A DNA stretch of 64,000 bases from Caulobacter vibrioides. GTDB lineage: Bacteria; Pseudomonadota; Alphaproteobacteria; Caulobacterales; Caulobacteraceae. The notes below the pieces were generated by a model. That model was not told the origin of the DNA. It searched no databases and was given only the letters and a program-made list of their open reading frames with translations. Positions 6,917 to 25,812 of the stretch are shown piece by piece. The translations under genes and the position numbers were made by a program. Every line of letters starts with the position of its first letter. The first letter of the stretch is position 1. The DNA is taken from the NCBI GenBank assembly GCA_001449105.1, contig LNIY01000073.1, positions 1 to 64,000 on the forward strand, given 5' to 3'.

Positions 6917-9889
6917 CTAGAACTCGTAGGTCAGGCCGAGGGTGAAGGTGCGGCCGCTGACCGTGCGGGCGATCAGGCGCTTTTCGACGAGGTCGGAGTA
7001 CTGGGTGATCGGCGCGTTGGTCAGGTTGACGCCCTCGACCACGATCCGCAGGCCGCCGGGGGCGTTGTAGTGGGCGGCGAAGTCGATGTTGTTGCTGGCC
7101 TTGTAGCCCGCTCCCACCGCGCCGTTGCCGCCGGCGCCGTCCAGGTATCCCGACCTGTAGGCCGACGAGATCCGCGCGCCCCAGCGCGGGGTCTCGTAGT
7201 AGAGCGTCGCGTTCGAGGTCCAGCGCGACAGCTGGAAGAGATCCAGCGTCACCGAGCGGTCCTCGATCAGCACGTTGGAGCGGCCCGCGGCGCGGGTGAC
7301 GTTGCCGACGACGCCCAGCTTGTCGAACGGCGGTGGCAGGAAGGTGAAGTCGCGCTGCAGGGCCAGTTCGATCCCCTCGATGCTGGCGCCGTCGCCGTTC
7401 ACCGGCCGAACGAACGTGTAGACGGTGTCGGGGCCGTTGCCGGGCGCCAGGAAGGCCAGCGGATAGCCGGTCGAGCCGTAGGGCACGGCGCTGGTCGCCG
7501 TGGTGATGAACGAGTCCATCCGCTTGTGGAACAGGCTGACGGCTAGGTAGCCGGCGCGGCCCTGATAGACCTCGACCGCGGCCTCCATGGCGTCGGCCAG
7601 GAACGGTCGCAGGTTCGGGTTGCCAGACGAGATGGTGCCGCCGAAGGGCGCGGAGTTGACGTTGCCGGCGGTGCGCAGGTCGGCGAGGCTGGGCCGGCTG
7701 ATATTGCGATTGGCCGAGAGGCGGACCACGATCGACGGCGAGACGTCCATCGCCAGGTTCAGGGCCGGCAGCACGCCGTCGTAGTCGCTCTTGATCACCG
7801 CCGGTTCCAGCTTGCTGCCGGTGTTGACCATCCCCGCCGAGGTCAGGTCTGTGGCGTACCAGCGCAGGCCGAGATCCCCGCGCCAGGGCCGGTCGGCCAC
7901 GACGCCCCGCACGCGGGCCATGACGTAGGCCGACGAGGTCTTTTCGCTGATCGAATAGTGCGAGCCGGGCTGGTCGTCGGCCTCCGACAGGTCGCGCGGC
8001 AGGCCCAGGCGCGCGAAGGTCCCGTCGAGATCGGCGACGATGTAGGGCAGAAGCGACTTTTCGAAGATCGGCCGCTTCACCGCCTGGGGCGTGGTCGCGC
8101 CGCCCGCGTAGTCGGTGCGCGCCCGCCGGGTGTAGCCGTCGTTGCGGAAGGCCTTGTACTGCAGGCCGCCAAGCAGCGAGAGCGCCGGAGCGAGCCGATA
8201 GTCGAGGTCGAAGCGGCCGGTGGAGAAGGCGTTGATCACCCGATCCTCGCGGACGTCGGCGCGCATCAGGCTCCAGGCGGCCGGATCGGCGGGGTCGAAG
8301 CCGTAGGTGCTGACGGCCGCCGCGTCGCCGCCGCGCAGGTCGTAGGCGAAGGCCTTGTCGCGGGCTTGCAGGAAGACCTTGTCGAAGACCGGTCCTTCGA
8401 AGTCCGAACGCGACCAGCCGGCCATGCCGCGCAGGCGCAGGCGGTCGCTGGCCTGGAGTTCGCCGTTCAGTGCGCCCTGCATGAAGACCGTCGCGTCTTC
8501 GGAGCGCTTGTGCTCGCTACGCAGGTCCACCCCGCCGGAATAATCGGCGTAGACGAGGCTGTTTCCGCGGATCTCGGCGGCGCGCAGGCGCTGGGCGCCG
8601 CGCACGTCGCCGGTCAGCGGATTGTCGCCGGCCGCGGCCAGCGAGAACTCGTCGCGATCGTTGGTCAGGCGGCCGTACAGCAGGTCGACGCCCAGCTTCA
8701 GGCGGGCTCCAGCCTCGTACTGGCCCGCGAAGGTGAGGCCAAGGCGCGTGCGGTGGTCGAACCAGGTCGAGTAGCTGGCCGCCATCGGGGCGACGACCCG
8801 GGCGTCTCCCGTGGCGTTGATCAGGCGGTCGGCGACGTCGCGCGCCACGCCGGGCCCGACATTGGCCGCGCCGAAGGTCACCGGCGACCATCCCCAGTTG
8901 CGATAGCCGTACTCGTTGGCGTCGTTCTCGCTGTAGGCGATCGAGACCAGCGCCCCGAAGTCGCCCCAGCGCCTGGAGGCGAGCGCGGCGAAGCGCGGGC
9001 TGACCGTGTCGGTCGCGCCGTTGGTCAGGGCCTTGGCCGAGAAGGCCAGCTTGTCGCCAGGATAGTCGAACGGCTTGGCGGTGCGCAGCTCGACCGTGCC
9101 GCCGATGCCGCCTTCGTCCTGGTCGGCGGCGTAGGACTTCCACACCGTGACCCGGTTGAAGAGCTCGCTGGCGAAGATCGAATAGTCGAAGGCCCGGGTC
9201 CTGCTCACCGAGCCGCGGTTGTCCATGCCCGAGGCGGTCGAGGCCGAGACCTCCATGCCGTTCAGCTGGGCGCGGGTGAAGTCGGGGCCAAGGCCCCGCA
9301 AGGCGATCTGCCGGCCCTCGCCGGTGTCGCGCGAGATGGTCATGCCGGGGATGCGCTGGAGGGATTCGGCGAGGTTCAGGTCGGGGAAGGCGGCGATGTC
9401 CTCGGCGAGGATCACTTCCTGCGCCCCGGTCGCCCGCCGCTTGAGGTCGCGGGCGTGGGCCATGGTCTCGCGGAAGCCCGAGACGACCACCGGCTCGACC
9501 TCTGTCGGCGCTTCGGGCGCAGAGAGGTGGCGCGGCGATGGGGGAGAGGGCGCAGCCGGCGCGGCCATGGCCTCGCGCAGCACATAGCCGCTGCCGGCCG
9601 CCACGGCGCGCAGGTTCTGGCCGGCGATCAGCCGATCCAGCGCCTCGCGCGGCGTCAGCATCCCGCTCACGCCTCGGCTGGTGCGGCGGCGGATGTCGGC
9701 CAGGGTCATCACCGGCAGGTCGGCCTGGCGGGAGAAGGTGCTCAGGGCCTGGGAAAGGTCGCCGCCCTCGATGGCGAAGCGGCGGGGAGCCTCGGCCCGG
9801 GCGGGCGCGGCGGCCACCGCCGCCGAAAGGCCCGCGACCAGGCCCAGGACGGAGCCGGACCGCGCCAGCAGGGCGCGCCGTGCCGCCAT
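6917..9889 (-). CDS. TonB-dependent receptor with STN domain (Xanthomonas/Caulobacter type)
   Basis: 990 residues from the ATG at 9889; the frame extends to 9982 but the extension lacks signal-peptide character. A signal peptide covers about 1-33 (ends APARA). An STN domain follows (RRFAIEGGDLSQALSTF to about residue 105), then a TonB-box-like EPVVVSGFRE, a plug with the NLAESLQRIPGMTISRD and RGLGPDFTRAQLNGMEV motifs, and a 22-stranded barrel ending in TLGLTYEF. The STN domain marks it as a transducer that signals to FecR. It is a close paralogue of the next receptor upstream (10042-12741), differing mainly by having the STN domain. It is co-oriented with the sigma and FecR genes downstream and probably co-transcribed. 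Substrate not deducible. Confidence 0.93.
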   Translation of the reverse strand: MAARRALLARSGSVLGLVAGLSAAVAAAPARAEAPRRFAIEGGDLSQALSTFSRQADLPVMTLADIRRRTSRGVSGMLTPREALDRLIAGQNLRAVAAGSGYVLREAMAAPAAPSPPSPRHLSAPEAPTEVEPVVVSGFRETMAHARDLKRRATGAQEVILAEDIAAFPDLNLAESLQRIPGMTISRDTGEGRQIALRGLGPDFTRAQLNGMEVSASTASGMDNRGSVSRTRAFDYSIFASELFNRVTVWKSYAADQDEGGIGGTVELRTAKPFDYPGDKLAFSAKALTNGATDTVSPRFAALASRRWGDFGALVSIAYSENDANEYGYRNWGWSPVTFGAANVGPGVARDVADRLINATGDARVVAPMAASYSTWFDHRTRLGLTFAGQYEAGARLKLGVDLLYGRLTNDRDEFSLAAAGDNPLTGDVRGAQRLRAAEIRGNSLVYADYSGGVDLRSEHKRSEDATVFMQGALNGELQASDRLRLRGMAGWSRSDFEGPVFDKVFLQARDKAFAYDLRGGDAAAVSTYGFDPADPAAWSLMRADVREDRVINAFSTGRFDLDYRLAPALSLLGGLQYKAFRNDGYTRRARTDYAGGATTPQAVKRPIFEKSLLPYIVADLDGTFARLGLPRDLSEADDQPGSHYSISEKTSSAYVMARVRGVVADRPWRGDLGLRWYATDLTSAGMVNTGSKLEPAVIKSDYDGVLPALNLAMDVSPSIVVRLSANRNISRPSLADLRTAGNVNSAPFGGTISSGNPNLRPFLADAMEAAVEVYQGRAGYLAVSLFHKRMDSFITTATSAVPYGSTGYPLAFLAPGNGPDTVYTFVRPVNGDGASIEGIELALQRDFTFLPPPFDKLGVVGNVTRAAGRSNVLIEDRSVTLDLFQLSRWTSNATLYYETPRWGARISSAYRSGYLDGAGGNGAVGAGYKASNNIDFAAHYNAPGGLRIVVEGVNLTNAPITQYSDLVEKRLIARTVSGRTFTLGLTYEF

Positions 9890-9980
9890 CGAAATCCCCA
9901 GGGCGGCGGCCGGCCAGAATCCGGGCGCCTCTTGGGCCAGACCCCTACAAACCGCGCATGTCACTAATTTGAAGGCGTCC

Positions 9981-10015
9981 AAAAAGAAGGCCGCCGTCCG
10001 GGGTGGACGGCGGCC
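9981..10015 (-). terminator. Rho-independent terminator after the upstream TBDR
   Basis: A perfect 11-bp stem (GGCCGCCGTCC, 9989-9999, paired with 10005-10015) with a 5-base loop. Read on the minus strand it is followed by TTCTTTTT. It lies 27 bp past the stop of the TBDR at 10042-12741 and before the start of the second TBDR, so the two receptors are probably separate transcription units or linked only by read-through. Confidence 0.85.
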
Positions 10016-10041: not shown

Positions 10042-12741
10042 CTAGAACTCGTAGGTCACGCCGAAGGTGAAGGTGCGGCCGCTCTTGGTGTAGGCGAGCA
10101 CCCGGTCGGCGGCGATGTCGGTGTACTGGTCGATCGCCTGGTTGGTCAGGTTGATGCCCTCGACCACCAGCTTCAGCCCGTTCGGCGCGTTGTAGTGCGC
10201 GGCGAAGTCGATGTTGTTGGTGCTGTGATAGCCCGAACCGATGTTGCCGTTGCCGCCGGCGCCGTCGAGATAGCCGTCACGATAGGCGCTGGAGATGCGC
10301 GCGCCCCACTTGTCGGTCTCGTAGTAGAGCGTGGCGTTCGAGGTCCACTTCGACAACTGCAGCAGATCGAGAGACACCGCCGTCCCGTCGATGATCACGT
10401 CCGACTTGCCGGTGGCGTAGGTGACGTTGCCGACGAAGCCGAACTTGTCGAACGGCGCGGGCAGGAAGTCGAAGTCGCGCTGGAAGGCCAGCTCGACGCC
10501 CTTGATCGAGGCCCCGTCGCCGTTCACCGGACGGTTGAAGCTGTACATGGTCGAACCGTCCTGGCCCGGACCCTGGAACTGGGTCGGGTAGCCGGTCGAG
10601 CCGTACGGCACCAGCGAGGTCTCGCTGGTGATGAAGCTGTCCATGTTCTTGTAGAAGGCGCTCAGCGCGATATAGCCGCTCTTGCCTTGGTAGAACTCCA
10701 GCGAGCCTTCGACGGAGTCGGCGAGGAACGGCTCCAGGTTCGGGTTGCCGGCCGAGATCGTGCCGCCGAACGGGGTGAAGCTGACGCTGCCGGCCGCGCG
10801 CAGGTCCGACAGGCTGGGGCGGCTGATGTTGCGGTTGGCGCTGAAGCGGGCGACGATGTTCTCACGCACGTCGACGGCGACGTTGAAGGTGGGCAGGAAG
10901 CCGTCGTAGCTGCTCTTGATCACCACCGGCAGCAGCACCGAGCCCTGCGTGGCCGTGCCGGCCGAGGTCAGGTCGGTGGAGTAGTAGCGCACGCCCACAT
11001 TGGCCCGCACCGGATAGTTCCAGGCCGTCGTGTCCAGGTCGTACTGGACGAAGGCCGAGGTGGTCTTTTCCTCGAGCTGGTAGTTCGAGCCCGGCTGGTC
11101 GTTGGCGGTGGTCAGGTCGCGCAACTGGCCGGTGCTGGCGTAGGTGCCGTCGATGTCGGCGACGATGTACGGGATCACCGACTTCTGGTTGACGACGTAC
11201 TTCACCGCCTGCGGCACGACCGGCTTGTTATACCAGTCGACGCGCTGGTAGCGCTGGAAGCCGTTGTTGGCGAAGTTCCTGTACTCAACGCCGGCCTTCA
11301 GCACCGAGCCGCCGCCGAAGTCGTAGACGCCGTCCAGCTTGGCGGTCTTGTACTCGCTGCTGATGTAGTCCTCGCGGGTGTCGGCCCGCATCAGGCCCCA
11401 CTGGGCGGGATCGGTCAGGTCGAAGTTGTAGGTGTTCTTGCCCATCCGGCCGCCGCGGAAGTCGTAGCTGATCGACTTGTTGGTCGACTGCAGGAACACC
11501 TTGTCGAAGATCGGCTCCTCGAATTCCGACTTCGAATAGCCCAGCAGCGCCTTGATCTTGAAGGCGTCGCTGACCTGATAGCCGCCGTTGAACACCGCCT
11601 GGGTGAAGGTGGTCTTGTCGTGCGAGAACTTGTGCTCGCTGCGCATGTCGACGCCGCTGACGTCGGCGGCGACCAGGCTGTCGCCCTCGATGACCACCGA
11701 GTTCAGGCGCTGGGTTCCGGTGATGTTGCCGGTCAGGGCGTTGACGCCGGCCGAGGTCATCTGGAACTCGTCGCGGTCGTTGGTCAGGGTCCCGTACATC
11801 AGGTCCAGGTCCATCGTCAGGCGCTCGCCCGGATGGTACTGCAGAGCCGTGGTCAGCCCGAGGCGCTCGCGCTTGTTGAACCAGGTCGAATAGGTCTGGG
11901 CCTGCGAGGCGCGCACGCGGTTGGCGCCCGTCGCGTTGACCAGGCGGTCGCGGTCGGCGGCCGACACGCCCGGGCCGACATTGGCCGCGCCGGCGTTGAT
12001 CAGCGTCCAGTTCCAGTTGCGGTAGCCGTACTCGTTGATGTCGTTCTTGCCGTAGGCCACCGAGAACAGCGCGCCGAAGTCGCCCCAGCGGTTGGAGATC
12101 AAGCCGACCACGCGCGGGGTGGTGGTGTCGGTGTTGGCGTTGTTCATGCCCTTGACCGAGGCCACGGCCTTGAAGCCGCGATAGTCGAACGGCTTGGCGG
12201 TGAAGAGGCCGACGGTGCCGCCGATGCCGCCTTCGTCCTGCTCGGCGGCGTACGACTTCTCGACGACGACCTTGTTGAACAGTTCCGAGGCGAAGATCGA
12301 GTAGTCGAACGAGCGCGAACGGCTGACCGAGCCGCGATTGTCCATGCCCGAGGCGGTGTTGGTCAGCACCTCCATGCCGTTCAGCTGGGTGCGGGTGAAG
12401 TCGGGGCCCAGGCCGCGCAGGGCGATCTGGCGGCCTTCGCCGGCGTCGCGCGAGATGGTCACGCCCGAGATGCGTTGCAGGGATTCCGCGAGGTTCAGGT
12501 CGGGGAAGGCGGCGATGTCGTCGGCGACGATGACGTCCTGGCTGCCGACCGCGCGACGCTTGATGTCGCTGGCCTTCAGCAGGCTCTCACGGAAGCCGGT
12601 GACGACGATGGCCTCGACTTCGTCGACGGCGGGCTCGGCCGCCGGCGCGGGCGTCTCGGCCGCGTGGGCCTGGGCCGCGCCCAGCAGCGCGACGGACAGG
12701 GCCGTTGTGGTCAGCAGGTTGAACTTGATGGCTTTTTTCAT
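10042..12741 (-). CDS. TonB-dependent receptor, STN-less paralogue
   Basis: 899 residues. Signal peptide about 1-28 (ends AQAHAAE). A TonB box (EAIVVTGFRESL) lies near residues 43-54, directly after the signal with no STN domain. The plug contains NLAESLQRISGVTISRD and RGLGPDFTRTQLNGMEV, and the barrel ends in TFGVTYEF. It is obviously homologous over its whole length to the receptor at 6917-9889, including identical motifs around EQDEGGIGGTV and TAKPFDY. Family knowledge says it imports a TonB-dependent ligand such as a siderophore, vitamin, sugar or peptide; I cannot tell which. The pairing of a signalling and a non-signalling copy suggests that the neighbour senses and this one transports. 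Confidence 0.93.
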   Translation of the reverse strand: MKKAIKFNLLTTTALSVALLGAAQAHAAETPAPAAEPAVDEVEAIVVTGFRESLLKASDIKRRAVGSQDVIVADDIAAFPDLNLAESLQRISGVTISRDAGEGRQIALRGLGPDFTRTQLNGMEVLTNTASGMDNRGSVSRSRSFDYSIFASELFNKVVVEKSYAAEQDEGGIGGTVGLFTAKPFDYRGFKAVASVKGMNNANTDTTTPRVVGLISNRWGDFGALFSVAYGKNDINEYGYRNWNWTLINAGAANVGPGVSAADRDRLVNATGANRVRASQAQTYSTWFNKRERLGLTTALQYHPGERLTMDLDLMYGTLTNDRDEFQMTSAGVNALTGNITGTQRLNSVVIEGDSLVAADVSGVDMRSEHKFSHDKTTFTQAVFNGGYQVSDAFKIKALLGYSKSEFEEPIFDKVFLQSTNKSISYDFRGGRMGKNTYNFDLTDPAQWGLMRADTREDYISSEYKTAKLDGVYDFGGGSVLKAGVEYRNFANNGFQRYQRVDWYNKPVVPQAVKYVVNQKSVIPYIVADIDGTYASTGQLRDLTTANDQPGSNYQLEEKTTSAFVQYDLDTTAWNYPVRANVGVRYYSTDLTSAGTATQGSVLLPVVIKSSYDGFLPTFNVAVDVRENIVARFSANRNISRPSLSDLRAAGSVSFTPFGGTISAGNPNLEPFLADSVEGSLEFYQGKSGYIALSAFYKNMDSFITSETSLVPYGSTGYPTQFQGPGQDGSTMYSFNRPVNGDGASIKGVELAFQRDFDFLPAPFDKFGFVGNVTYATGKSDVIIDGTAVSLDLLQLSKWTSNATLYYETDKWGARISSAYRDGYLDGAGGNGNIGSGYHSTNNIDFAAHYNAPNGLKLVVEGINLTNQAIDQYTDIAADRVLAYTKSGRTFTFGVTYEF

Positions 12742-12942
12742 GGCCCCGATCCTCGCGGTCTACGACGGGGCAGGGAGGCTTCCCCACCGGTCGTCAGGCG
12801 GGGGAGGGCGAAGGACCGTCGCCGGGGACAGGTTCGAGGCCGGGTTTTATGTGAAGTGTTTGCGACGGTGGACGGTGTTGATCCGTGGGCGGATCGCATC
12901 CGTCATGCCCGAGCCCGGCCATGACGGATGCGGCCTGTGTCG
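12742..12942 (-). promoter_or_regulatory. Intergenic region: operon-end hairpin and TBDR promoter region
   Basis: 201 bp between the end of the cargo-1 gene and the TBDR start. Bases 12896-12907 and 12920-12931 form a perfect 12-bp inverted repeat (GCATCCGTCATG) with a 12-base loop and no T-run, a likely end-of-operon hairpin. Closer to the TBDR, 12844-12855 on the minus strand reads TTCACATAAAAC, a near copy of a sequence upstream of the alkaline phosphatase gene (19839-19850). Confidence 0.5.
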
Positions 12943-13461
12943 CTAGTTCAGCTTAACGGTGAAGCTGCCGTCGAAGTTGTCGTCCATCAGGGCCGACCCG
13001 TCGCTGAGCACTTTGACGTGCGTTTCGGGTTGCCCGTCGTTGTCGACATCGAGCCAGAAGGTGTTGCTCACACCGTTGTCGATCCAGAACGTCGTCCCGT
13101 CGACCGATCGCTGCTCGACTTCGTCGATATTGAAGCCGCTAGTGGCGTCCCGGGCGTCGATCTTTGCCTGGGTGAAGTTGTCGAGCCCCACTTGGCTCAG
13201 AATGGCTTCGATCGCCGGCTTGATAAGTTCGAGCTCGTTGGCGGCGTCGCCGACCTCGCCGGTGTCGACGTCTTCGCCGTCGTCGTCCGGCCAGACGTCT
13301 TCAGGATCGTCACCGTCATCGTACTCGCCGTCGCCCGGAACCGGGTCCGGCCAGGTATCGACGATCGTTCCGTCGTCCTCATCTTCCTCCCAGCCTTCCT
13401 CTTCCTCGGAGCTCGCGCCACCGGCAATCAGCAAGAGTTCTTCATCGTTAAGCGATCGCAT
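12943..13461 (-). CDS. Acidic double-glycine-leader secreted protein (cargo 1)
   Basis: 172 residues. It begins with a 15-residue leader MRSLNDEELLLIAGG that fits the class II double-glycine consensus exactly: L at -12, E at -8, L at -7, I at -4, GG at -2/-1. Cleavage after G15 would release a 157-residue protein. Residues about 18-70 are extremely Asp/Glu-rich; about 75-115 look helical (ELIKPAIEAILSQVGL); the C-terminus has a DVDNDGQPETHV segment resembling a DxDxDG calcium loop, followed by DDNFDGSFTVKLN. It is a paralogue of the protein at 18859-19380. It sits 109 bp downstream of the exporter gene on the same strand, behind an AT-rich stretch that may hold its own promoter. I do not recognise a named family. 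Exported cargo is a strong inference from leader and context; its activity is unknown. Confidence 0.85.
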   Translation of the reverse strand: MRSLNDEELLLIAGGASSEEEEGWEEDEDDGTIVDTWPDPVPGDGEYDDGDDPEDVWPDDDGEDVDTGEVGDAANELELIKPAIEAILSQVGLDNFTQAKIDARDATSGFNIDEVEQRSVDGTTFWIDNGVSNTFWLDVDNDGQPETHVKVLSDGSALMDDNFDGSFTVKLN

Positions 13462-13570
13462 GTACTGCTCAGTATGTTATGCATCACCATTTGTGACTTA
13501 TGTTTTGTGATCTAGAATCGCGTTTTCCATCAAGTTTTAGTTTCGAATTTTTATAGTATTTGGATTCTTG
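13462..13570 (-). promoter_or_regulatory. AT-rich spacer upstream of cargo 1, probable promoter
   Basis: This 109-bp gap is markedly AT-rich against a GC-rich background, with runs such as GAATTTTTATAG (plus strand). A short palindrome (TACTGCTCAGTA, 13463-13474) abuts the cargo-1 start. I could not fix a -35/-10 pair with confidence. A separate promoter would allow cargo 1 to be made at a higher level than the exporter. Confidence 0.4.
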
Positions 13571-15721
13571 TTATGAAATTGTTGGTTGGTGAATTTGGGG
13601 CATGTTCTCTGTGGCGCTGACCTCGGGTTCATTCGTCTTTGCTTCACGACGTTTGATCTCTGTCAGGTCGGTCGAGAGCAGGAGCACACGGTCGGCCGTG
13701 GCTATGGTCTCCGGACGGTGAGCGACGATAATTCGTGTCATGCTCAACGCCTTCAGCTCCGCGTTGATCGACTTCTCGCGCTTGAGGTCGAGATGCGAGG
13801 TCGCCTCGTCCAGGATGAGGACCTTCGGTTCCTTGTAGAGGGCGCGCGCCAGCAGCACGCGCTGCTTCTGGCCGCCGGAGAGGGTCGATCCCATGTCGCC
13901 GACCAGGGTTTCCGCGCGCATCGGCATGGCGCGCACCTCTTCTTCGATCGAGGCCAGGCGCAGGCAGCGCCAGACCCTTTCCGTATCCACGTGCTCGTCG
14001 AAGAAGGCGACATTCTCCGCGATGGATCCCGGCAGAAGGTCGTCGTCCTGCATGACCACGCCGAAGGTCTGGCGCACGGCCTTGGCGCCCCAGGCCGATA
14101 GCGGAAGGCCGTCGAGGCGGACGTCGCCATGGGTGGGCGGATAGAGGCCGCACATGACCTTCAGCAGGGTGGACTTGCCTGCGCCCGAAAGGCCGACGAT
14201 GGCGACCATCTCGCCCGGCTCGATGCGGGCGTTGAGGCCCTTGAGAACCCAGGGGTCCGTCGGTCCGTAGCGGTACATCAGGCCGGCGATGTCCAGGCGT
14301 CCGTGAACGGGAGGAAGGCCGGCCGGAGCCCGGTCGAGCCCCGTCTCCTGCGGAGTCAGGGCGATGTCCGCCAGGCGTCCCGTGTAGACGTCCAGCAGCC
14401 GCCAGTTCACGAACTGGTCGAAGAGGTTCGTCGAGCGGGACAGGAACTGCGTGCGATAGGACATGAAGGCGTAAAGCGCGCCGACCGTCGCTGCGCCTTC
14501 GATCACCGACTGGACGCCCAGATAGATGATCAGGATGCCCGCCAGGGCTTCGAAAGCCCGCTGGACGGTCGCGAAGATCGAGTTGGTCAGGGCGTTGCTC
14601 TGGCTGGCGCGCACCGAGTCCGCGAGCTTGTTGGCCCAGTCGGCCTCGCGCTTGCTCTCGCCGCCCATGAGCTTGATGGTCTGGATGGCTCGCAGCGTTT
14701 CCAGTCGCTTGCCCTGTTCGGCGACCGAGGCCAGCAGCGCGTCGGCCCCGAAGCGTCGGCTGAGCGGCAGGCCGCAGAGCCGCACGACGATGTAGATCAG
14801 CAGGCCCGCGCCGGTCACCGCCGCCAGCATCGGGGCGTAGATGGTCATCAGCACGGCGGTGCTGATCGCCAGGCCGCCATCGACGACCGCCGCGATCAGC
14901 CCGCCCGAAATCAGGTTCCGGACCGGGTCGAGCGCCTGAAAGCGGCTCTGCACGTCGGCCAGCCGCCGCCTCTGGAACCAGGGCAGGGGGAGCCGGATCA
15001 TGTGGTGGAACAGTCTCTGGGTCATGTCCCACGACAGGAGGGACGAGACGCTCTGGAGCGCCACGGCGCGCAGGGCCTCCGCGCCGGCGTTGAAGACCGC
15101 GAAGACGGCGAAGCCGATCGCCAGGCCGGAAAGGAGCTCCAGGTCGCCTTTGACCGCGGCCTCGTCGATGGCCAGCTGCAGGTAGAAGGGGCTGGCGAGC
15201 ACATAGGCCTGCAGCAGGATCGAGAGGATCAGGACCTGCGCCATGCCTCCGCGGATTTCGCTGGTCCAGCGCATCAGGCTGAACAGGCGCAGGGGCGAGC
15301 GCTTGGCGCGCTTCTGGAAGTTGGGCACCGGCGCCAGCTCGACGGCCACGCCGGTGAACGCCCGGGTCGCCTCCGCCTCGGTCACGGTCCGATAGCCTCT
15401 CGCCGGATCGAAGATCCGCACGCCCTTGCGGGTCACGCGATCCAGAACGACGAAGTGGTTCATCTCCCAGTGAAGGATGGAGGGGCGCTTCAGTCCCGAC
15501 AGCTCGCTCAGCTCGCAACGCACGGCGCGGGCCGACATGCCGATGTCGTTGGCGATATCGATCAGGCCTCGCGCGGTCGCGCCTCGCGCCGACACCGAGT
15601 ATCGCTGGCGCAGCCAGGCGAGGTCGATTTCCGAACCCGACATGGCCGCGGCCATGCCAAGCGACGCCAATCCGCATTCGGCGGCTTCGGTCTGGCGGTT
15701 TCGAACGGCCGCGCGGCTCAC
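13571..15721 (-). CDS. Peptidase-containing ABC exporter (C39 bacteriocin-type, PCAT)
   Basis: 716 residues from a GTG at 15721 that overlaps the HlyD stop (GTGA) and is preceded by AAGGAA. The N-terminal C39 peptidase has QTEAAECGLASLGM with the catalytic Cys16, His89 in the MNHFVVLD motif and Asp105 in IFDPARG. A six-helix transmembrane domain follows (about 165-440). The nucleotide-binding domain has Walker A GLSGAGKST, signature LSGGQKQR, Walker B VLILDEAT and the switch His in AHRPET. Such proteins cut double-glycine leaders and pump the mature cargo through a type I channel with an HlyD adaptor and an outer-membrane factor. No TolC-like gene is present in the window, so a housekeeping one is presumably shared. 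The two leader-bearing genes at either end of this operon are the obvious substrates. Confidence 0.95.
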   Translation of the reverse strand: MSRAAVRNRQTEAAECGLASLGMAAAMSGSEIDLAWLRQRYSVSARGATARGLIDIANDIGMSARAVRCELSELSGLKRPSILHWEMNHFVVLDRVTRKGVRIFDPARGYRTVTEAEATRAFTGVAVELAPVPNFQKRAKRSPLRLFSLMRWTSEIRGGMAQVLILSILLQAYVLASPFYLQLAIDEAAVKGDLELLSGLAIGFAVFAVFNAGAEALRAVALQSVSSLLSWDMTQRLFHHMIRLPLPWFQRRRLADVQSRFQALDPVRNLISGGLIAAVVDGGLAISTAVLMTIYAPMLAAVTGAGLLIYIVVRLCGLPLSRRFGADALLASVAEQGKRLETLRAIQTIKLMGGESKREADWANKLADSVRASQSNALTNSIFATVQRAFEALAGILIIYLGVQSVIEGAATVGALYAFMSYRTQFLSRSTNLFDQFVNWRLLDVYTGRLADIALTPQETGLDRAPAGLPPVHGRLDIAGLMYRYGPTDPWVLKGLNARIEPGEMVAIVGLSGAGKSTLLKVMCGLYPPTHGDVRLDGLPLSAWGAKAVRQTFGVVMQDDDLLPGSIAENVAFFDEHVDTERVWRCLRLASIEEEVRAMPMRAETLVGDMGSTLSGGQKQRVLLARALYKEPKVLILDEATSHLDLKREKSINAELKALSMTRIIVAHRPETIATADRVLLLSTDLTEIKRREAKTNEPEVSATENMPQIHQPTIS

Positions 15722-17004
15722 ATCTCGTTCCTTCGCTTGACCGCCAGCAGGGGTTCCAGGAGCCATTCCAGGAACGAGCGCGACTCCAGGAGCAGGTCGG
15801 CGTTCACCCGGCCCCCGGGGGCGAGGCGCCAGCTTCGGCCGTAGGCGTCGACCGTCTGGCGATCCAGGGCCACCGTGATCCGGTAGAGGCCCTCCTTCGT
15901 CTCGATGGGGACGGGCAGGTCGGCTGGATTGGTGGGCGCGTCGGCCCGCTTGATCACTCGGCCATGGCTGACGCCGAAGCGCTGGTAGGGAAACGCCTCG
16001 TACATCAGCCGGACCCGATCGCCGGGCTTGATGAAGCCCACGGCGCGCGACGGCGCCCACAGTTCGGCCTGGAGATTGGCGCCGCTGGGCAGGATGATCG
16101 CCAGCGGGTGAGTCGTCGACGCGGGGCCGCCCAGGCGCGCCTGCAGGGAGGCGACCTGGCCGGCGCGGGGCGCCGTGACCACGATCTCGCGATCGGCCGC
16201 GTAGCTCGCCTGCTTCTCCCGCAACTGGGCGCCGGCGCCGCGGAGTTCGGCCTGGGCGAGTTCGGCCTCGGCGCCGAGTCGCCGCTGCTGGGCGTCGAGC
16301 GTCCTGAGCGAGGCGGTCACGGATTCGAACTCCTGCTCCAGCAGCACTTGGTCCTGCTGGGCGTCGACCCAGGCCTCTTCTCGCTGGCGAAGCTGCAGTT
16401 CGGAGACGAAGCCCCGGTCGCGGAGCGGGCGGGCGGCTTCGAAGGACGCGAGGTTGAGCCTGACGCGCTGCTTCTGCAGGTCGATGTTGCGCACCAGGCG
16501 CGCACGCTGCGCGACAAGGCCGGTGCGCCTGGCGTCGATCTCTTCCAGTTGCCGCTCGACGGCGACGGAGGAGGCGCGCGCCCGGTCGGCCAGCGAGTTC
16601 ACCTGCTCCGTCGAGGCGTCGGTCAGGACGGTCCCCAGGCGTTCTCCGCCTTCGATCATCGGGTCGAGCGTCAAGGTGGCGATGGGCGCGCCCGCCGCGA
16701 CGAAATCGCCTTCATCGACGTGAAGCCGGGTGACCACGGCCGATCGCGGCGCGGACACGCGGATGGCGCCGGCGGTGGGCTCCAGCACGCCGCTCACGGT
16801 TTCCTTGCGGGTGTAGGTGTTGGTGACCAGGAACGCGCCGACCGAGAGGAAGCTGAGCGCCATGAAGCCGGTCAGCGTCCAGGTCGTGAGGCGGTGCAGC
16901 TTCACCGGGGCGCCGTAGGCGTCCTGCGTCGCGGCGAGGGCCTCCGCGCGAAACAGCTGCGGCGCGTCCGCGCCCGGCGCGATGTGGTCGTCGGTCCGCG
17001 ACAT
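15718..17004 (-). CDS. HlyD-family membrane fusion protein (type I secretion adaptor)
   Basis: 428 residues from the ATG at 17004, which overlaps the upstream hydrolase stop by one base (TGATG). A cytoplasmic N-terminus of about 40 residues is followed by one transmembrane helix (about 43-65, FMALSFLSVGAFLVT). Then come a first half-lipoyl segment (VSAPRSAVVTRLHVDEGDFVAAGAPI), a long coiled-coil hairpin (about 130-255) and the second lipoyl half (IVVTAPRAGQVASLQARLGG), plus a beta-barrel domain. It resembles the CvaA/LapC-type adaptors that work with peptidase-containing ABC exporters. The adaptor links the inner-membrane exporter to an outer-membrane channel. Tight overlaps with both neighbours show a single polycistronic unit. 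Confidence 0.93.
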   Translation of the reverse strand: MSRTDDHIAPGADAPQLFRAEALAATQDAYGAPVKLHRLTTWTLTGFMALSFLSVGAFLVTNTYTRKETVSGVLEPTAGAIRVSAPRSAVVTRLHVDEGDFVAAGAPIATLTLDPMIEGGERLGTVLTDASTEQVNSLADRARASSVAVERQLEEIDARRTGLVAQRARLVRNIDLQKQRVRLNLASFEAARPLRDRGFVSELQLRQREEAWVDAQQDQVLLEQEFESVTASLRTLDAQQRRLGAEAELAQAELRGAGAQLREKQASYAADREIVVTAPRAGQVASLQARLGGPASTTHPLAIILPSGANLQAELWAPSRAVGFIKPGDRVRLMYEAFPYQRFGVSHGRVIKRADAPTNPADLPVPIETKEGLYRITVALDRQTVDAYGRSWRLAPGGRVNADLLLESRSFLEWLLEPLLAVKRRNEM

Positions 17005-18830
17005 CACTCGATGGTCGCCAGCTGGTCGCGGATCCAGGGCTGGACCCCCGCGAGCGCCACCATGTGTGATCCGGTTTCCTTGGTGGTGAGCGTGAAATCG
17101 CCGGACGGCCGGCAGGGCAGGTCGCCGGGCTCGAAAGTGGGGTCGGTGCGGCTGTAGAAGATCGCCACGCGCGCCGAGCAGGAAAGTGTCGCACGCTGAT
17201 GCTCGGCCCACCGGCGAAAGGCGTCGGAGGGTTGCGTCCAGTCGATGCCCATCGCGGCCCGCTCCCAGGCCGCCTGCCTGGCGGGCGAGGACTGCTGCGG
17301 CCCGCGGGTGTCCGCCCAGCTCGCCGGCGGCTTCGGCTTGAGCCAAGGCGCGGCCAGGAGAAAGCGATCGAAAACCGGCTTGCGGCCCTGCATTCGATTG
17401 AGGGTCGCAAGGCCCAGAAGGCCGCCGTAGCTTTCGCCATAGAAGACGGTGCGGCGATAGTCGCCGAGAGCGCGGGCTTGCATCGCCGCCAGAATGGCGT
17501 CGGCGTCGGCTTCGATGGCCGATCCGCCGTCCCGGGCCAGGCGATCGACGGTGGCCCGGCCGGCTCCCGAGTTTCCCGCGCCGACCACCATCAGGACGTC
17601 CCAACCTTCGGCCACGAACGGCTCGACCAGGGGCGCCCGCGACGCGCCGGCCGACGGCGCGCCGGGGCCGCCGGGCGCATAGACGATCAAGCCCTTCGGA
17701 GCGGCCGTGGTGAACAGCGTCGCGGCGAGCGGCCGCTGCGTGGAGCCCAGTTGCACGGTCCGCATCTCGACCTTGGCCGACACGCCTTCTGCCCGAGGGC
17801 AGACGAGCTCCCGCGAGCGGCCGTCCACTTCCAGGCGGATGCGCGCGTTCCCGTACGGCGCCTCGTAGTGATAGGCGGCGGCTGAACGCTTTTCGGCCCG
17901 GCTGAAGTCCACGAGCGCTTCATCGGGGCGCCTGTCGATGGGGCGGCTGACGGGCGAGGCTGACCCCGGAGAGAACTCGGTGATGGCGTCGAGGTCGTCG
18001 AACACGGCCGACAGCTCGCCATCGGACCGCAGCTTGAACCTGCCGCCCTTGGCGATCGTCGCTCCGCTCTCGACGCCGATGAGTTCGCCGGCGGCCAGAA
18101 CCAGCTTGCGCCCGCCGAGTCTGAGCAGCCGTGGCGGGGTTTTCTTGCCGGCGACGGCTACCGCGCCGCTGATCGGGGCCGTGCGCCAGGCCCGGCCGCT
18201 CTTGAGACGCGCGGTGTAGTCCTGGCGATCGAGATAGAGCCCGTCCGCATTGGAGTTGCCGGCCGTGATCGGCACGTCGATCGGCCGGCTGTCGGGTGGC
18301 GTGGCGCGGGCGCTTTCCTGGAGCCGAGGCCACAGGCGCTTCAGTTCCAGGATCGGCGTATGTCCGTCCAGATGCAGGTCTTCGGTGAAGACGGCGGACT
18401 TCAGGGCGAGGGCCTCTCCCTCGTCCGGGGAAAAGGCGGGAGCCGCCAAGGAGCGGAAGGCGATCTCGGGTGCGAGCGTGACGATGGACTTCGAATTGGC
18501 GGCCCAGGCCGCTTCGCGCACGGGCGCGTTGGATTGAAAGGCCGAGCGGACGCAGCTCTGCGAGAAGTTGGTCTCGACCAGGCAGTCCACGTCGAGGACC
18601 GCCATGTTCGGGGTCGCATGCCTGAACGGAAAGAAGCCTCGCTTGGAGTAGGCGGCCAGATAGCGCCCGTCCGGTGAGAAATCGATCCTGTGCGTGCCGC
18701 ATAAGGCGTCGGCCGGCGTGGACGATTTCAGGGGGAATACGAGATTGGCGCCGTCGGCCATGCAGCCGGAAGCGATCGGGCAAAGAAGAGCAGCGAGAAG
18801 ACTGCGTCCAGCAATTGAATGTTTAAGCAT
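17004..18830 (-). CDS. Probable lipoprotein alpha/beta hydrolase (prolyl-oligopeptidase-like) of the secretion operon
   Basis: About 608 residues from the ATG at 18830; a GTG two codons upstream is an alternative. The N-terminus is hydrophobic and ends in ASGC, a weak lipobox, suggesting an envelope lipoprotein. The N-terminal half carries WD40/TolB-like pieces (RIDFSPDGRYLAAYS, FSPDEGEALAL), consistent with a beta-propeller. The C-terminal half is an alpha/beta hydrolase: an oxyanion-region PGGPGAPS, the nucleophile elbow FYGESYGG (Ser467), an acidic residue in YSRTDPTFEPGD and a late His in TGSHMVAL. This two-domain order is that of S9-type peptidases, although I cannot show peptidase activity. 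It lies between cargo 2 and the HlyD gene and is translationally coupled to the latter, so a role in cargo maturation, surface processing or self-protection is inferred. Confidence 0.72.
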   Translation of the reverse strand: MLKHSIAGRSLLAALLCPIASGCMADGANLVFPLKSSTPADALCGTHRIDFSPDGRYLAAYSKRGFFPFRHATPNMAVLDVDCLVETNFSQSCVRSAFQSNAPVREAAWAANSKSIVTLAPEIAFRSLAAPAFSPDEGEALALKSAVFTEDLHLDGHTPILELKRLWPRLQESARATPPDSRPIDVPITAGNSNADGLYLDRQDYTARLKSGRAWRTAPISGAVAVAGKKTPPRLLRLGGRKLVLAAGELIGVESGATIAKGGRFKLRSDGELSAVFDDLDAITEFSPGSASPVSRPIDRRPDEALVDFSRAEKRSAAAYHYEAPYGNARIRLEVDGRSRELVCPRAEGVSAKVEMRTVQLGSTQRPLAATLFTTAAPKGLIVYAPGGPGAPSAGASRAPLVEPFVAEGWDVLMVVGAGNSGAGRATVDRLARDGGSAIEADADAILAAMQARALGDYRRTVFYGESYGGLLGLATLNRMQGRKPVFDRFLLAAPWLKPKPPASWADTRGPQQSSPARQAAWERAAMGIDWTQPSDAFRRWAEHQRATLSCSARVAIFYSRTDPTFEPGDLPCRPSGDFTLTTKETGSHMVALAGVQPWIRDQLATIE

Positions 18831-18858
18831 ACCCACCAGACGCAGTCCGTAGTCTCGA

Positions 18859-19380
18859 TTACTTCAGCTTGGTGTCGAAGGAGCCGTTGAAGTCGGAGTC
18901 CATCCACACGGATTCGTCGTCGCGAACTTCGACATGGGTCTCGGGCTTGCCGTTACCGTCGAGGTCCATCCACAGCGATCCATCGTCCTTCTCGGTCCAG
19001 AAGGTCTCGTCGCCGGACTTGTGCTCAACGACGGTGTCGCGATCGAAGTCGCTCTTCTCGTTGCGCTCGTCGATCGCTTCCTTGGTGAATTCACCCAGGC
19101 CGAGCTTATCCAGGATGGCGTCGGCGATGTCCGAGAACAGCTCGAGCACGGTCTTGACCGTCTCGACCACGTCGCCGAGGCCGTCGCCGGCGTCGGATTC
19201 ACCACCGTCGTCCTCTTCGTCGGAGTCGCCGAACGGATCTTCGGGGTCTTCGTCCTCGTCGTCGTCCGGCGCGGTGACGATGACTTCCTCGACGTCGTCC
19301 TCTTCTTCCCCTTCGTCGTCGCTGTCGTTGCCGGCCCCGCCCGCGATCAGCAACAGCTCTTCATCGTTCAGTACGCGCAT
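18859..19380 (-). CDS. Acidic double-glycine-leader secreted protein (cargo 2)
   Basis: 173 residues from the ATG at 19380 (GAGGGG upstream); the frame stays open to 19425 but the leader begins at 19380. The leader MRVLNDEELLLIAGG is identical to that of cargo 1 except at residue 3. The mature protein opens with a very acidic tract (about 16-75) that contains EEVIVTA, a sequence like a TonB box. A helical stretch follows (ETVKTVLELFSDIADAIL, then LGLGEFTKEAIDER). The C-terminal ~50 residues (DLDGNGKPETHVEV, MDSDFNGSFDTKLK) align closely with cargo 1 and resemble DxDxDG calcium loops. It is the first gene of the operon, 28 bp ahead of the hydrolase. Export by the linked C39 transporter is strongly implied; the activity is unknown. 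Confidence 0.85.
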   Translation of the reverse strand: MRVLNDEELLLIAGGAGNDSDDEGEEEDDVEEVIVTAPDDDEDEDPEDPFGDSDEEDDGGESDAGDGLGDVVETVKTVLELFSDIADAILDKLGLGEFTKEAIDERNEKSDFDRDTVVEHKSGDETFWTEKDDGSLWMDLDGNGKPETHVEVRDDESVWMDSDFNGSFDTKLK

Positions 19381-19914: not shown

Positions 19915-21099
19915 GTGCTGAAACGCTCTCTGACCTGCGCTCTGTTCGCTTCGCTTTCGATTCTGGCGCCCGGGGCGTGGGCGCAGGGCCTGCCGACGGG
20001 CGCGGCCCAGGCCGGAAAGCCGCAAGCCTCGCAGCCGCGCGCCAAGAACGTCATCCTGTTCCTCGCGGATGCGGGCGGCGTCCCGTCGATCAACGCCGCC
20101 AGCCTCCTGGGCTACGGCGAGCCGCTCCGCCTGCATGTGCAGGGCTGGCCCAACCTCGGCCTCAGCGAGACATCGCCGGTCGATCAGTTCGTGTCGGACT
20201 CGGCCAACGGCATGTCGTCCATCATGACCGGCGTGAAGACGCGCAACGGCGTGATCAGCCAGTCGCCGGCCGCCGTGCGCGGCAAGCAGGACGGCCAGCC
20301 GACCAAGACCCTGCTGGAGTACGCCGAAGAGCATGGCCTTCGCACCGGGGTCGTCACCTCCGAGCCGGTCGCCGACGCCACGCCCGCGGCGACCTACGCC
20401 CATTCGAACGATCGCAAGAAGTGGGGCGAGATTTTCCCGCAGGCCTTCGCGCCGCGTTTCGGCGACGGGGTCGACGTGCTGTTCGGCGCGGGCCGCAAGG
20501 AGATCGGCGAGCAGTTGGCCGCGGCGGGCGGCGGCTTCGAGCAACTGAGCAAGAAGCATGATCGGCCGATCTACGCTGAGCTCGACCAGGTCCCGGCGTC
20601 TAACGCCCGTCCGGTGGTCGTGGCCGATCATGTGGACGTCCGCGCCGCGACCCTGAAGGCTCTCGACCTGCTGCAGAAGTCGTCCAAGGGCTACCTGCTG
20701 GTGGTCGAGTGGGACGCCCATACCGATGACGCCCGCAAGGGTCTCCAGAACATCGTGGACTTCGACAAGCTGGTCGCCGAGGTCCAGGGCCGCGTCGACC
20801 TCGCCGACACCCTGCTGCTGTTCACCGCCGACCACTCGTTCGGCCTGCAGGTCGACGGCGGGCGTCGCGGCGAGCCGGTGCTGGAGGGCTACGACGCCTG
20901 GAAGGCGACGGGCAAGGACGATCAACTGGTCCGTCTGAAGAACGTCCAGGTCAACCGCAGCCACACCGGCGAGGAGGTCGCGGCGCTGGCGATCGGTCGC
21001 GGCGCCGAAGGCGTTCGTGGCTACTTCCCCAACACGCACCTGTTCAAGGTGATGATGGACGCCTTCGGCTGGACGCCGGATCCGGCGGCCAAGGACTGA
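19915..21099 (+). CDS. Secreted alkaline phosphatase
   Basis: 394 residues from a GTG start preceded by GGGAGA. Signal peptide about 1-23 (ends AWAQ). The alkaline phosphatase fold is shown by NVILFLADAGG (metal-binding Asp, in place of the usual GDGMG), DSANGMSSIMTGVKT with the phosphorylated Ser96, EWDAHTDDA, TADHSFG and SHTGEEV. The EWDxHTDD motif is more compact than in E. coli PhoA, where Asp and His are further apart, so this is a divergent subfamily. It would release phosphate from monoesters in the periplasm or outside. It is monocistronic and convergent with the FecR gene at 21145, with a hairpin between them. A weak PHO-box-like dyad lies upstream. Confidence 0.9.
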   Translation: MLKRSLTCALFASLSILAPGAWAQGLPTGAAQAGKPQASQPRAKNVILFLADAGGVPSINAASLLGYGEPLRLHVQGWPNLGLSETSPVDQFVSDSANGMSSIMTGVKTRNGVISQSPAAVRGKQDGQPTKTLLEYAEEHGLRTGVVTSEPVADATPAATYAHSNDRKKWGEIFPQAFAPRFGDGVDVLFGAGRKEIGEQLAAAGGGFEQLSKKHDRPIYAELDQVPASNARPVVVADHVDVRAATLKALDLLQKSSKGYLLVVEWDAHTDDARKGLQNIVDFDKLVAEVQGRVDLADTLLLFTADHSFGLQVDGGRRGEPVLEGYDAWKATGKDDQLVRLKNVQVNRSHTGEEVAALAIGRGAEGVRGYFPNTHLFKVMMDAFGWTPDPAAKD

Positions 21100-21144: not shown

Positions 21145-22074
21145 TCAGGAGCGCCGCAAAAGGATCAGGGCGTCGCCGTCCGACCGTATCGACACGCCGT
21201 GCAGGCGGGCGATCGCCTTGGCGAAGGCGGCCGTGTCTCCGGCTTCGAACACGCCGTCGATCTCGAGCCGTTCGAGCGCCGGTGTCTGGATACGCAGAGG
21301 CGTGCGGCTGTAACGGTTCATCTCCGCGACCGCCTCGGCCAGGGGCGTGCGGTTGAAGCTGATCCGGCCCTGGCGCCAGTCGTCGATCCGCCCGGCCTGG
21401 GCGAGGAGGATCGGGCCCGGCCGTCCCTCGGGCGAAACCCGCACGGACTGGCCGGCGCGAAGCCTGACCGCCGGAGGCGCGCCGGCGCCCGCCGGGCCCA
21501 CGTCGACGCCGCCGTGCAGCAGGGCGACCTCGGTGAAACCGGCCTGGCGATAGACGTTGAAGCGCGTGCCGGTGACGCGAACGCGCGCGCCCTGGCTCAG
21601 CACGTCGAACGGCGCGCCGTCCTTGTGGGCGACGTCGAAGAAGGCTTCGCCGGTTTCCAGCACGATCTCGCGACGACCGCCGCCAAAGCGCGCCGAAAGG
21701 CGCGTGGCGGTGTTCAGGGTCACGATCGATCCGTCGGGCAGCGCGATCGTTCGCCGCTCGCCCACGCCGGTCTCGTGGACGACCGGCTGCCGGTCCCACA
21801 GGAACACGCCGCCCACGGCGAAGCCGGCGGCGATCGCTGCGCCGCCGATCCAGGCGCGGCGGTCGATCAGGCGAGGCTTGGCCGCCGGAGTGTCCTTCAG
21901 CACGAAGTCCTCGGCGTCGAGCTGGCCGAGCGCGTCCCAGACATCGGCGATCTGGCCGGTCTCCGGGCGCGGCGAGGCGCTCTCGCCTTGCTCCTCGCGC
22001 AGGCGAGCGGCGACGAAGGCGTCGGCCTCGGCGTCCCGCTCCGGCGGGCGGAATGGAGTTACTTCTCGAACCAT
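21145..22074 (-). CDS. FecR-family anti-sigma protein
   Basis: About 309 residues from the ATG at 22074, inside the 3' end of the sigma gene; a TTG at 22080 is less likely. A DUF4880-like N-terminus precedes a hydrophobic segment near residues 75-97 (WIGGAAIAAGFAVGGVFLW). The periplasmic FecR domain shows TIALPDGSIVTLNTATRLS, GEAFFDVAHKDGAPFDV and VRVTGTRFNVY, and the C-terminal STN-like part ISFNRTPLAEAVAEMNRYS. Its expected partner is the STN-bearing TBDR transcribed divergently at 22765. The overlap with the sigma gene indicates coupled synthesis. Confidence 0.92.
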   Translation of the reverse strand: MVREVTPFRPPERDAEADAFVAARLREEQGESASPRPETGQIADVWDALGQLDAEDFVLKDTPAAKPRLIDRRAWIGGAAIAAGFAVGGVFLWDRQPVVHETGVGERRTIALPDGSIVTLNTATRLSARFGGGRREIVLETGEAFFDVAHKDGAPFDVLSQGARVRVTGTRFNVYRQAGFTEVALLHGGVDVGPAGAGAPPAVRLRAGQSVRVSPEGRPGPILLAQAGRIDDWRQGRISFNRTPLAEAVAEMNRYSRTPLRIQTPALERLEIDGVFEAGDTAAFAKAIARLHGVSIRSDGDALILLRRS

Positions 22075-22622
22075 CCACAATCCTTGAGCCTGTGCCGGCA
22101 GCGGCCGAGCGCGTCGGCCAGCAGGCGCTGGGTCGTCCGCAACGGGATGCGCTGGCGTTCGGCGATCTCCACCAGCGTCAGTCCTTCGACCCGGTGCATC
22201 ATCAGAACCATCCGCTGTTCACGCGTCAGGGACGCGATGGCGCGGCGCAGCAGGTCGGCGTTCTGCTGCCAGCGCACCTCGTCGAACGGGGAGGGGGCGT
22301 CGTGCGCCAGATCCTCGGGCAGCTCGACATGGCGGTCGCCGCCCCGTCCCAGCCGGCGGCGGCGCAGGTCCCGCGCGACGCTGTCGGCGGTCTTGAACAC
22401 GTAGGTGGCGTTGAAGCTGGGCGGCGGGACGCCGGCGGCCAGGCGCGTCAGCCGCAGGTAGATGTCCTGCAGCGCGTCCTCGACGTCGGGCCCGACCAGG
22501 AACCGTCCGAGGTGACGGCGCAGGCGCGCGTCGAACCGCTCGACGAGCCCGGCCATGATCTGGGCGGCTGGATCGGCAGGCTTCCGGGAAGCTGTCATCG
22601 ATGGGGCGACGCCGTCAAACAT
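22059..22622 (-). CDS. ECF sigma factor, FecI-like
   Basis: 187 residues; a second in-frame ATG at 22598 is equally plausible. Region 2.1-2.4 is seen as VGPDVEDALQDIYLRLTRL and TYVFKTADSVARDLRRRR, region 4 as LTREQRMVLMMHRVEGLTLVEIAERQRIPLRTTQRLLADAL. It should drive a FecR-controlled receptor regulon, most likely including the TBDR that starts 143 bp away on the other strand. It overlaps the FecR start by 16 bp. Confidence 0.92.
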   Translation of the reverse strand: MFDGVAPSMTASRKPADPAAQIMAGLVERFDARLRRHLGRFLVGPDVEDALQDIYLRLTRLAAGVPPPSFNATYVFKTADSVARDLRRRRLGRGGDRHVELPEDLAHDAPSPFDEVRWQQNADLLRRAIASLTREQRMVLMMHRVEGLTLVEIAERQRIPLRTTQRLLADALGRCRHRLKDCGWFEK

Positions 22623-25700: not shown

Positions 25701-25812
25701 CCTGACGGGCGAGTACAGCTACTGGGCCCATGTCGGCCGCGACTCCACGGCGCTGTCGGACGTGGTCGATTCCGGCCGGCGTGTCGTCGTCAGCTTGCGC
25801 TCGACGTTCTAG
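22765..25812 (+). CDS. TonB-dependent receptor with STN domain
   Basis: 1015 residues. Signal-peptide-like N-terminus about 1-30 (hydrophobic VLGGAAVATAFPSSAALAA). STN domain about 33-108 (QSFDVPGQPLASALRDLARQ to TFVIVARP). A TonB-box-like TPVLVTSARW lies near 126-135. The plug has QNLSEALGDLPGMTVIN and NAEYNLSMINGVSVAQG, and the barrel ends in VVVSLRSTF. The ribosome site is weak, so the start is less certain than the frame. It is a full-length paralogue of the receptor at 26915-29674, which lacks STN: both share GEG(L/M), INGV(S/N)VAQG(L/M)PYSR and, near the end, YSYW(A/S)HVG(R/K)DS. It probably senses a ligand and signals through the divergent FecR/sigma pair. Its stop overlaps the convergent HD gene's stop in CTAG. 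Confidence 0.92.
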   Translation: MGRGGRHAFLRVLGGAAVATAFPSSAALAAGAVQSFDVPGQPLASALRDLARQGRVQVLFSAESLEGRRSRSVVGRIEVRGAFDLALSETGFEARRVDERTFVIVARPRPQQSAKPVSELPPAELTPVLVTSARWRTDEVERRIATDLAELAPVRRLTRDDMERGAAQNLSEALGDLPGMTVINTGRSFIGGIDSASRGEGLYAAYRGLNAEYNLSMINGVSVAQGLPYSRGIQLNLLPPGAFEAVVVHKTGRADLDGDFIGAALDFRTPGPAEASRSPWTTLTVSGRLETRARDYDEAGLGDGARIEHGRRFGPDERFGLYVAAAYENRGFVNSELAGVMAAQNDGGWAYGVSGSAAGGPVDPGRPQDNLVQTSMNVGVSSGRSRLRNYALALDWRAAPGLDVRLNATHAQARTEQNSTFSQVVSGPQSWIADGTGLYRLSVESLSTRVWYETNPDEVSLSTVSLAADVVAGRWRLAPYLFASHGESARPDHLEASAWINQADGYNIGRTPRAFGGVTVVYRDGLPAPQWPRSVSDDLDNAGRVLVARRAGQRTEQFSEQWRYGGGFGLGFVPTAGSWRGFRVGAKITRSDRELTDRNWTNAFFADIYQTAGLTWDGLGISRGTYAEVFPGLYGWSIPKVDHDRLEALFQAHRTAQSFDTCGALYVNNLNCNSQSGSETVQAVYAMATHAAGAWEAQFGLRGERTRIDNRFWVMPDTVDGETPGAWGASRSRYAKLLPSLNLSYRQGDRGVWRAAAWRSYSRPAFMQLGGGERTETLDGVTTITRGNPDLKSADAWNLDLSHQRWLPGGGAVSLSAYAKWIDHYLYESGSELDVGASPSGDGAVRVLTPRNGGDGLTRGLEAEWFQPLGDPLSLGGRASLDVNLSRQWSRVDLGEVLGRAQPMLNAPDWLGNAELAYGLGRASAYLSLNYTGAYLSAYDVLGAAGDWDNLWVRPVARLDARVRWRFDERTRLDVIVTNLTGEYSYWAHVGRDSTALSDVVDSGRRVVVSLRSTF

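Follow-up and report, generated by a model that had tools for sequence, protein, structure and literature searches.

The window analysed here, a 64,000-nucleotide stretch of contig LNIY01000073.1 from Caulobacter vibrioides, carries a five-gene operon on its minus strand that reads, 5' to 3', cargo 1, an S9-type serine hydrolase, an HlyD-type adaptor, a C39 peptidase-containing ATP-binding cassette (ABC) exporter and cargo 2. We propose that the cargos are probably polymorphic bacteriocins that are secreted in the manner of class II microcins and taken up, like group B colicins, by a TonB box of their own, with the hydrolase serving as a catalytic immunity protein. The operon encodes an intact protease and exporter and cargos with double-glycine leaders; a match to TonB boxes, C-termini that are swapped among cargos, and partner genes accompany it, and from these we infer TonB-dependent import, killing and the immunity role. 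The balance tips, if only slightly, towards an undescribed family in the Caulobacteraceae and Sphingomonas that combines a microcin-like exit with a TonB-box entry, bears peptidase-like, JAB-like, pore-forming or acidic D-loop domains, and employs an S9-type catalytic periplasmic immunity protein for the D-loop type. An earlier note on this DNA had recognized the export system but overlooked the TonB box together with the underlying family.

Cargo 1 (18859..19380, minus strand, as are all genes of the operon) is a protein of 173 residues, predicted to consist of a double-glycine leader, an acidic disordered linker with the TonB box, and a β-rich C-terminal D-loop domain. Its leader, MRVLNDEELLLIAGG (19336..19380), is followed by Ala, with cleavage expected after the Gly-Gly, and fits the double-glycine pattern at L-12, E-8, L-7, I-4, G-2 and G-1; this pattern recurs in relatives, in which the two D-loops (DLDGNGKPE and DSDFNGSFD, 18874..18966) are likewise conserved. 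Cargo 2 (12943..13461, 172 residues) is a paralogue with 45% identity to cargo 1 over the full length, a leader, MRSLNDEELLLIAGG (13417..13461), again followed by Ala, and D-loops DVDNDGQPE and DDNFDGSF. The mature proteins are strongly acidic: 158 residues with 59 Asp and Glu versus 12 Lys and Arg in cargo 1, and 157 residues with 47 versus 6 in cargo 2. Both leaders are a textbook fit, and the earlier description of Asp/Glu-rich cargos of about 157 residues with loop-bearing C-termini holds for the two proteins. No Pfam or NCBIfam family matched cargo 1. In its AlphaFold2 (AF2) model, residues 14–97 are mostly of low confidence, whereas the predicted local distance difference test (pLDDT) value is about 78 from residue 101 on.

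The exporter (13571..15721, GTG start) matches the Pfam families Peptidase_C39 (1.5e-26), ABC_membrane and ABC_tran. Its C39 domain aligns with the double-glycine protease 6mpz and keeps C16, H89 and D105, in agreement with the Cys/His/Asp triad reported earlier; with a Walker A motif, GLSGAGKST, the predicted ATPase is intact. The adaptor (15718..17004) matches Pfam HlyD_3 (5.9e-15) and TIGR01843 (6.7e-34, below the curated cut-off). Judged by these features, leader cleavage and export of the cargos through the C39 system are predicted with near certainty. Identity as an exporter of NHLP bacteriocins was ruled out, with a TIGR03796 score of 467.5 bits versus a curated cut-off of 853.3. One further protein with a C39-like domain, L014, was detected in the genome; it is devoid of the catalytic Cys region and was rejected as a second export route.

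The TonB box of cargo 1, VEEVIVTA (V30–A37; 19270..19293), lies about 15 residues past the Gly-Gly cleavage site. A receptor of the same genome (L037) carries AEEVIVTAQRR, and further receptor boxes in the genomes compared read VEEIVVTGSRI and LDKVTVTATRS. In tests made after the motif was seen, whose p values express its strength and not the outcome of a pre-planned test, a matrix derived from 26 receptor boxes, taken from this genome and one of Sphingomonas, gave cargo 1 a score of 14.3 (shuffle p 0.001), a value reached by 0.27% of 1472 internal protein windows. Ten double-glycine cargos scored above 10; the background N-termini above 10 belonged, to judge from their length and N-terminal sequence, to TonB-dependent receptors (Pfam confirmed two, both within the window), plus one cargo in the background set. 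In the same series, the plain core pattern was found near the mature N-terminus in 15 of the 25 cargos of at least 100 residues versus 21 of 453 other genes (Fisher p 1.2e-12), and the residues that flank the core resemble receptor boxes more closely than do those around chance VVVTG-like strings in other proteins (p 2e-4).

Such strings near the mature N-terminus include VEEVIVTAP in the window, VEEVVVTPP in locus L089, LETITVTGTR in L095, VDDIVVTAQR in L116, ITEVVITAPRR in L099, VGDVVVVGQRR in L093 and IGEIIVHGSR in L098, and most longer cargos of the window's exporter clade bear one though they are otherwise unrelated. The wider exporter group was collected with the HlyD adaptor as the query, which found it in 27 of 249 family genomes; 31 loci were taken, and 26 more distant ones (L121–L146) were added later. 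In the exporter tree the window falls in a 15-row clade with 100/100 support, in which the box is present at 10 of the 15 loci. The TonB-box label, which includes the weaker cases L013, L090, L100 and L115, is more clustered on the tree than in all 500 shuffles. The concentration of the motif in one exporter clade, together with its position near the mature N-terminus, would also be compatible with an extended recognition or folding element needed by these exporters. We consider this explanation unlikely: the box is found with three exporter lineages (the window clade, Sphingomonas, and L115/L116), its distance from the Gly-Gly ranges from 1 to 47 residues, the L096 and L097 cargos of the window's own clade lack it, and its flanks, including an Arg soon after the core in several cargos, match the boxes of receptors, which are not C39 cargos. 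By contrast, where an exported protein that is not a receptor bears a TonB box, the box is known to serve TonB-driven entry into a target, and a TonB-box bacteriocin is therefore favoured. In L121–L146, most of whose cargos are small peptides, scoring with a matrix of this type detected no significant box, and the TonB-box claim is consequently limited to the nearer exporter lineages.

The C-terminal parts of the cargos, which follow the box, are swapped. The exporter of L089 is 85% identical to that of the window, and the N-terminal 45 residues of its cargo are 73% identical to cargo 1; beyond residue 39, past the box, that cargo has no match to the cargo profile. The two cargos of the Sphingomonas locus L020 share 78% identity over the first 65 residues and 12% over the remainder. 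Elsewhere, the C-termini display an HExxH motif (L094, L092 and L100), a JAB-like HNHP...S..D motif (L095, L090 and L119) or glycine zippers (L098, L115 and L020). Pfam yields Peptidase_M91 for L094 (0.003) and DUF4329 for L119 (3e-4), both below the curated cut-off; DUF4329 overlaps with Tox-JAB-2, which is one of the known domains of polymorphic toxins (PMC3482391). On comparisons such as L089 with cargo 1 and the L020 pair, the cargos combine a shared, predicted trafficking end with exchangeable C-terminal domains.

The hydrolase (17004..18836) is assigned by alignment and an AF2 model to the S9 type, with a propeller and an α/β-hydrolase domain that contains a predicted catalytic Ser-Asp-His set, as is characteristic of Peptidase S9; S469, D565 and H591 are invariant in a four-sequence alignment of its nearest relatives. 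Its Pfam match to Hydrolase_4/Peptidase_S9 lies just below the cut-off (score 20.7 versus 22.6), and the model, with a mean pLDDT of 69, resembles S9 peptidases (8wt1, E 6e-16) at the level of the general fold. The protein had been described as a lipoprotein, and its lipobox, IASGC, is plausible; two relatives carry an ordinary signal peptide, however, and 'periplasmic' is therefore the safer term. S9-like hydrolases stand beside D-loop cargos in seven loci (the window, L012, L013, L016, L020, L089 and L099), of which L099 (hhalign 4e-9) and L089 (5e-12 over the catalytic part) encode distant ones, and a double-glycine cargo is located directly upstream of the hydrolase in L012, L013, L016, L020 and L021. 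The L015 and L017 hydrolases, other S9 enzymes without a cargo, were rejected as relatives.

In the relatives' loci, the gene 3' of most cargos encodes one exported or membrane protein, with a signal peptide or lipobox in most, and this partner often changes together with the cargo C-terminus. The glycine-zipper cargo of L098 adjoins the gene of a 121-residue membrane protein; a membrane protein is the usual partner of pore-forming microcins. Lipoproteins with a ClpP/crotonase-like NSGGG-type motif were observed in L096 (10658-11422), L110 (4989-5855) and L116 (13112-13945) and may represent an immunity or protease partner family. Since export through C39, HlyD and TolC bypasses the periplasm, the window's hydrolase would meet the cargo only on re-entry, and it therefore fits self-protection better than processing. 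Taken alone, the step that makes this putative peptidase an immunity or self-protection enzyme stands at about even chances.

The acidity of the cargos and their DxDxNG loops could alternatively denote a metal- or calcium-binding coat, an adhesin or a scavenger, the re-imported protein being digested for use by the hydrolase in the manner of a lasso-peptide isopeptidase. Isopeptidases of the AtxE2 type are S9-type enzymes whose genes, as here, neighbour those of an exported product and of receptors, and TonB-dependent receptor genes lie nearby (10042-12741 and 22765-25812); no lasso cyclase or precursor is, in contrast to lasso-peptide systems, present among the five genes of the operon. We regard this explanation as rather unlikely. 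The genome contains 121 Plug-domain matches, which makes receptor adjacency weak evidence, the same N-terminus bears unrelated C-terminal domains, some of them peptidase-like or pore-former-like, and ordinary receptor substrates are not known to carry a TonB box. The earlier note had offered a surface toxin, an adhesin or a metal-binding coat. The toxin stands in outline, whereas an adhesin or coat is less likely because neither explains the TonB box, the swapped C-termini, some of them peptidase-like, and the linked exported partner genes.

In the mechanism that we propose for the bacteriocins, the C39 exporter would cut the leader after the Gly-Gly, and the acidic protein would leave the cell directly via the exporter, the HlyD adaptor and a TolC-type channel encoded elsewhere. 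The cargo would then bind an outer-membrane receptor of a related competitor, and its disordered N-terminus would enter the periplasm, where TonB would grip the box and draw the cargo inward; group B colicins and S-pyocins are taken up in this way. The domain at the C-terminus may then act in the target periplasm or at the inner membrane. In the producer, the periplasmic S9-type hydrolase would cut the re-imported toxin and thereby protect the cell.

Several observations weigh against this bacteriocin interpretation. The box of cargo 2 is degenerate: the segment that aligns with the cargo 1 box (TIVDTW, 13351..13368) is divergent, and the best matrix score of the protein is 2.0, which is not significant. 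The L013 and L016 relatives score weakly (4.1 and 1.4), and L091 and L102 have no convincing double-glycine cargo. A fold search with the modest AF2 model of cargo 1 returned nothing significant, no known toxin relative of the D-loop domain was found, and Pfam matched no known toxin family in the C-termini of the window cargos. Motifs are part of the basis for the metallopeptidase and JAB assignments, whose Pfam matches are below the cut-off. C-terminal types and partner types do not always go together: L096, L110 and L116 encode ClpP-like lipoproteins that look alike by eye, next to cargos that differ, and no clear partner gene was seen in L095. Finally, a catalytic hydrolase of 600 residues is an unusual immunity protein.

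The relatives were gathered with the hydrolase as the query, the acidic cargo being a poor one. Cargo 1 alone returned no relatives from the genome contigs because its patterns are mostly low-complexity acidic stretches, and a class-wide search with a cargo profile gave only weak matches outside the window. At the threshold used, the hydrolase query identified cargo-linked relatives in two other genomes (G142 and G147) of the 249 in the family and had no match among plasmids; the named contigs with relatives belong to C. endophyticus, three Sphingomonas and one Caulobacterales metagenome-assembled genome. The cargo relatives recovered here pass the check set in the earlier note, each accompanying a C39 exporter, adjoining or elsewhere in the genome: L012 has none within its 20-kb stretch and two elsewhere in the same genome. 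Comparison of L021 (7115-7369) with L020 (6788-7369) indicates that the start of the second cargo has seemingly been lost in L021, where the first hydrolase reading frame is followed directly by the remnant of that cargo's C-terminus, in line with a deletion between two cargo-partner pairs. Among the distant loci, L121 (791-1243) encodes a double-glycine protein that has no Pfam match and whose CYVHDLNYG motif recalls phospholipase A2, and L145 (7792-7980 and 12755-13027) encodes double-glycine peptides very rich in glycine and Asn/Asp, next to a C39 exporter that is itself distant.

The reading frames and sequence agree with the five-gene minus-strand export operon described earlier, including the TGATG overlap between hydrolase and HlyD and the GTGA overlap between HlyD and the ABC exporter. 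A single polycistronic unit is likely for genes 1–4, but cargo 2 may possess its own promoter because it is preceded by a 109-nt gap of 33% G+C; no consensus promoter was found. A perfect 12-bp hairpin lies 3' of cargo 2 (12896..12931, minus strand, z -4.77) and reaches -38 kcal/mol together with the neighbouring stem; the operon probably terminates there. The TonB-dependent receptor at 10042-12741 was set aside as a member of the operon, given the strong hairpin and 201 bases between them and the abundance of receptors genome-wide. The window is rich in such receptors, with others at 6917-9982, 26915-29674 and 38420-40708. Upstream of the operon, a FecR protein (21145-22080, minus), an ECF-type sigma factor (22059-22622, minus) and a TonB-dependent receptor with an STN signalling domain (22765-25812, plus) form a cell-surface signalling set, and a similar-looking sigma/FecR pair is situated near the cargo of L116. 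An alkaline phosphatase family protein is encoded divergently from the operon (19915-21099, plus strand).

RTX identity, marked by glycine-rich nonapeptides and a C-terminal secretion signal, was rejected for the cargos, which have no Pfam match and an N-terminal double-glycine leader instead of a C-terminal secretion signal. The CdzC/CdzD system of Caulobacter crescentus shares the genus, C39/HlyD type I export, two cargos and the absence of a TolC gene from the operon, and consists of glycine-zipper proteins of 60-151 residues with a small membrane immunity protein (PMC5380434). These likenesses would suit a contact-dependent two-protein toxin that aggregates on the producer surface with no role for TonB. 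We consider that very unlikely: the window cargos are acidic D-loop proteins of 172-173 residues without a glycine zipper, cargo 1 bears a TonB box, the partner is an S9 hydrolase, and no small transmembrane immunity reading frame was found downstream of either cargo. Membership in Cdz was accordingly rejected, and the contrast with Cdz drawn earlier is upheld.

The overall architecture fits polymorphic toxin systems (Zhang et al. 2012), with a shared export end, exchangeable C-termini that include Tox-JAB-2/DUF4329-like domains, and linked partner genes, the toxin activity of the window cargos being putative. The terms 'TonB' and 'double glycine' are absent from the accessible part of the text of that survey (PMC3482391). 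No paper that joins a TonB box, a double-glycine leader and a bacteriocin was found in the open-licence literature, and the combination of TonB box, type I secretion, bacteriocin and leader peptide yielded the MccV paper only (PMC12511343).

Class II microcins such as microcin V, exported by CvaAB/TolC, have the same double-glycine leader, C39 ABC exporter and HlyD adaptor, and their uptake is TonB-dependent (PMC12511343); MccV, for which no TonB box is predicted, leaves through a C39 exporter and enters by way of Cir and TonB (PMC12511343). These microcins are smaller than 10 kDa, below the size of the mature window cargos of 157-158 residues, and the operon differs further in its periplasmic hydrolase partner and swapped C-termini. 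The TonB-dependent colicins, klebicin C and those of group B among them, have a TonB box of their own (PMC11658791), and together with S-type pyocins they share with cargo 1, though not with the degenerate cargo 2, a box in a disordered N-terminus (PMC11658791). Group B colicins and S-pyocins have neither a cleaved leader nor a dedicated exporter, unlike the window cargos, which are also smaller; no sequence relation of the cargos to group B colicins, S-pyocins or klebicin C was found. TonB-box bacteriocins are thus known as the colicin and pyocin type, and no box is predicted in microcin V, which a C39 system exports. If the interpretation is correct, the family would represent a modular toxin system that secretes itself and depends on TonB, in bacteria whose TonB-dependent receptors are very numerous, would point to new toxin domains and enzyme-based immunity, and would supply a simple rule for finding such toxins in alphaproteobacteria, namely a double-glycine leader with a TonB box of the host's type after it. 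The system would work as a hybrid between class II microcins and group B colicins and is a member of neither, because its cargos are too large and box-bearing for the former and have a leader and dedicated exporter, in contrast to the latter.

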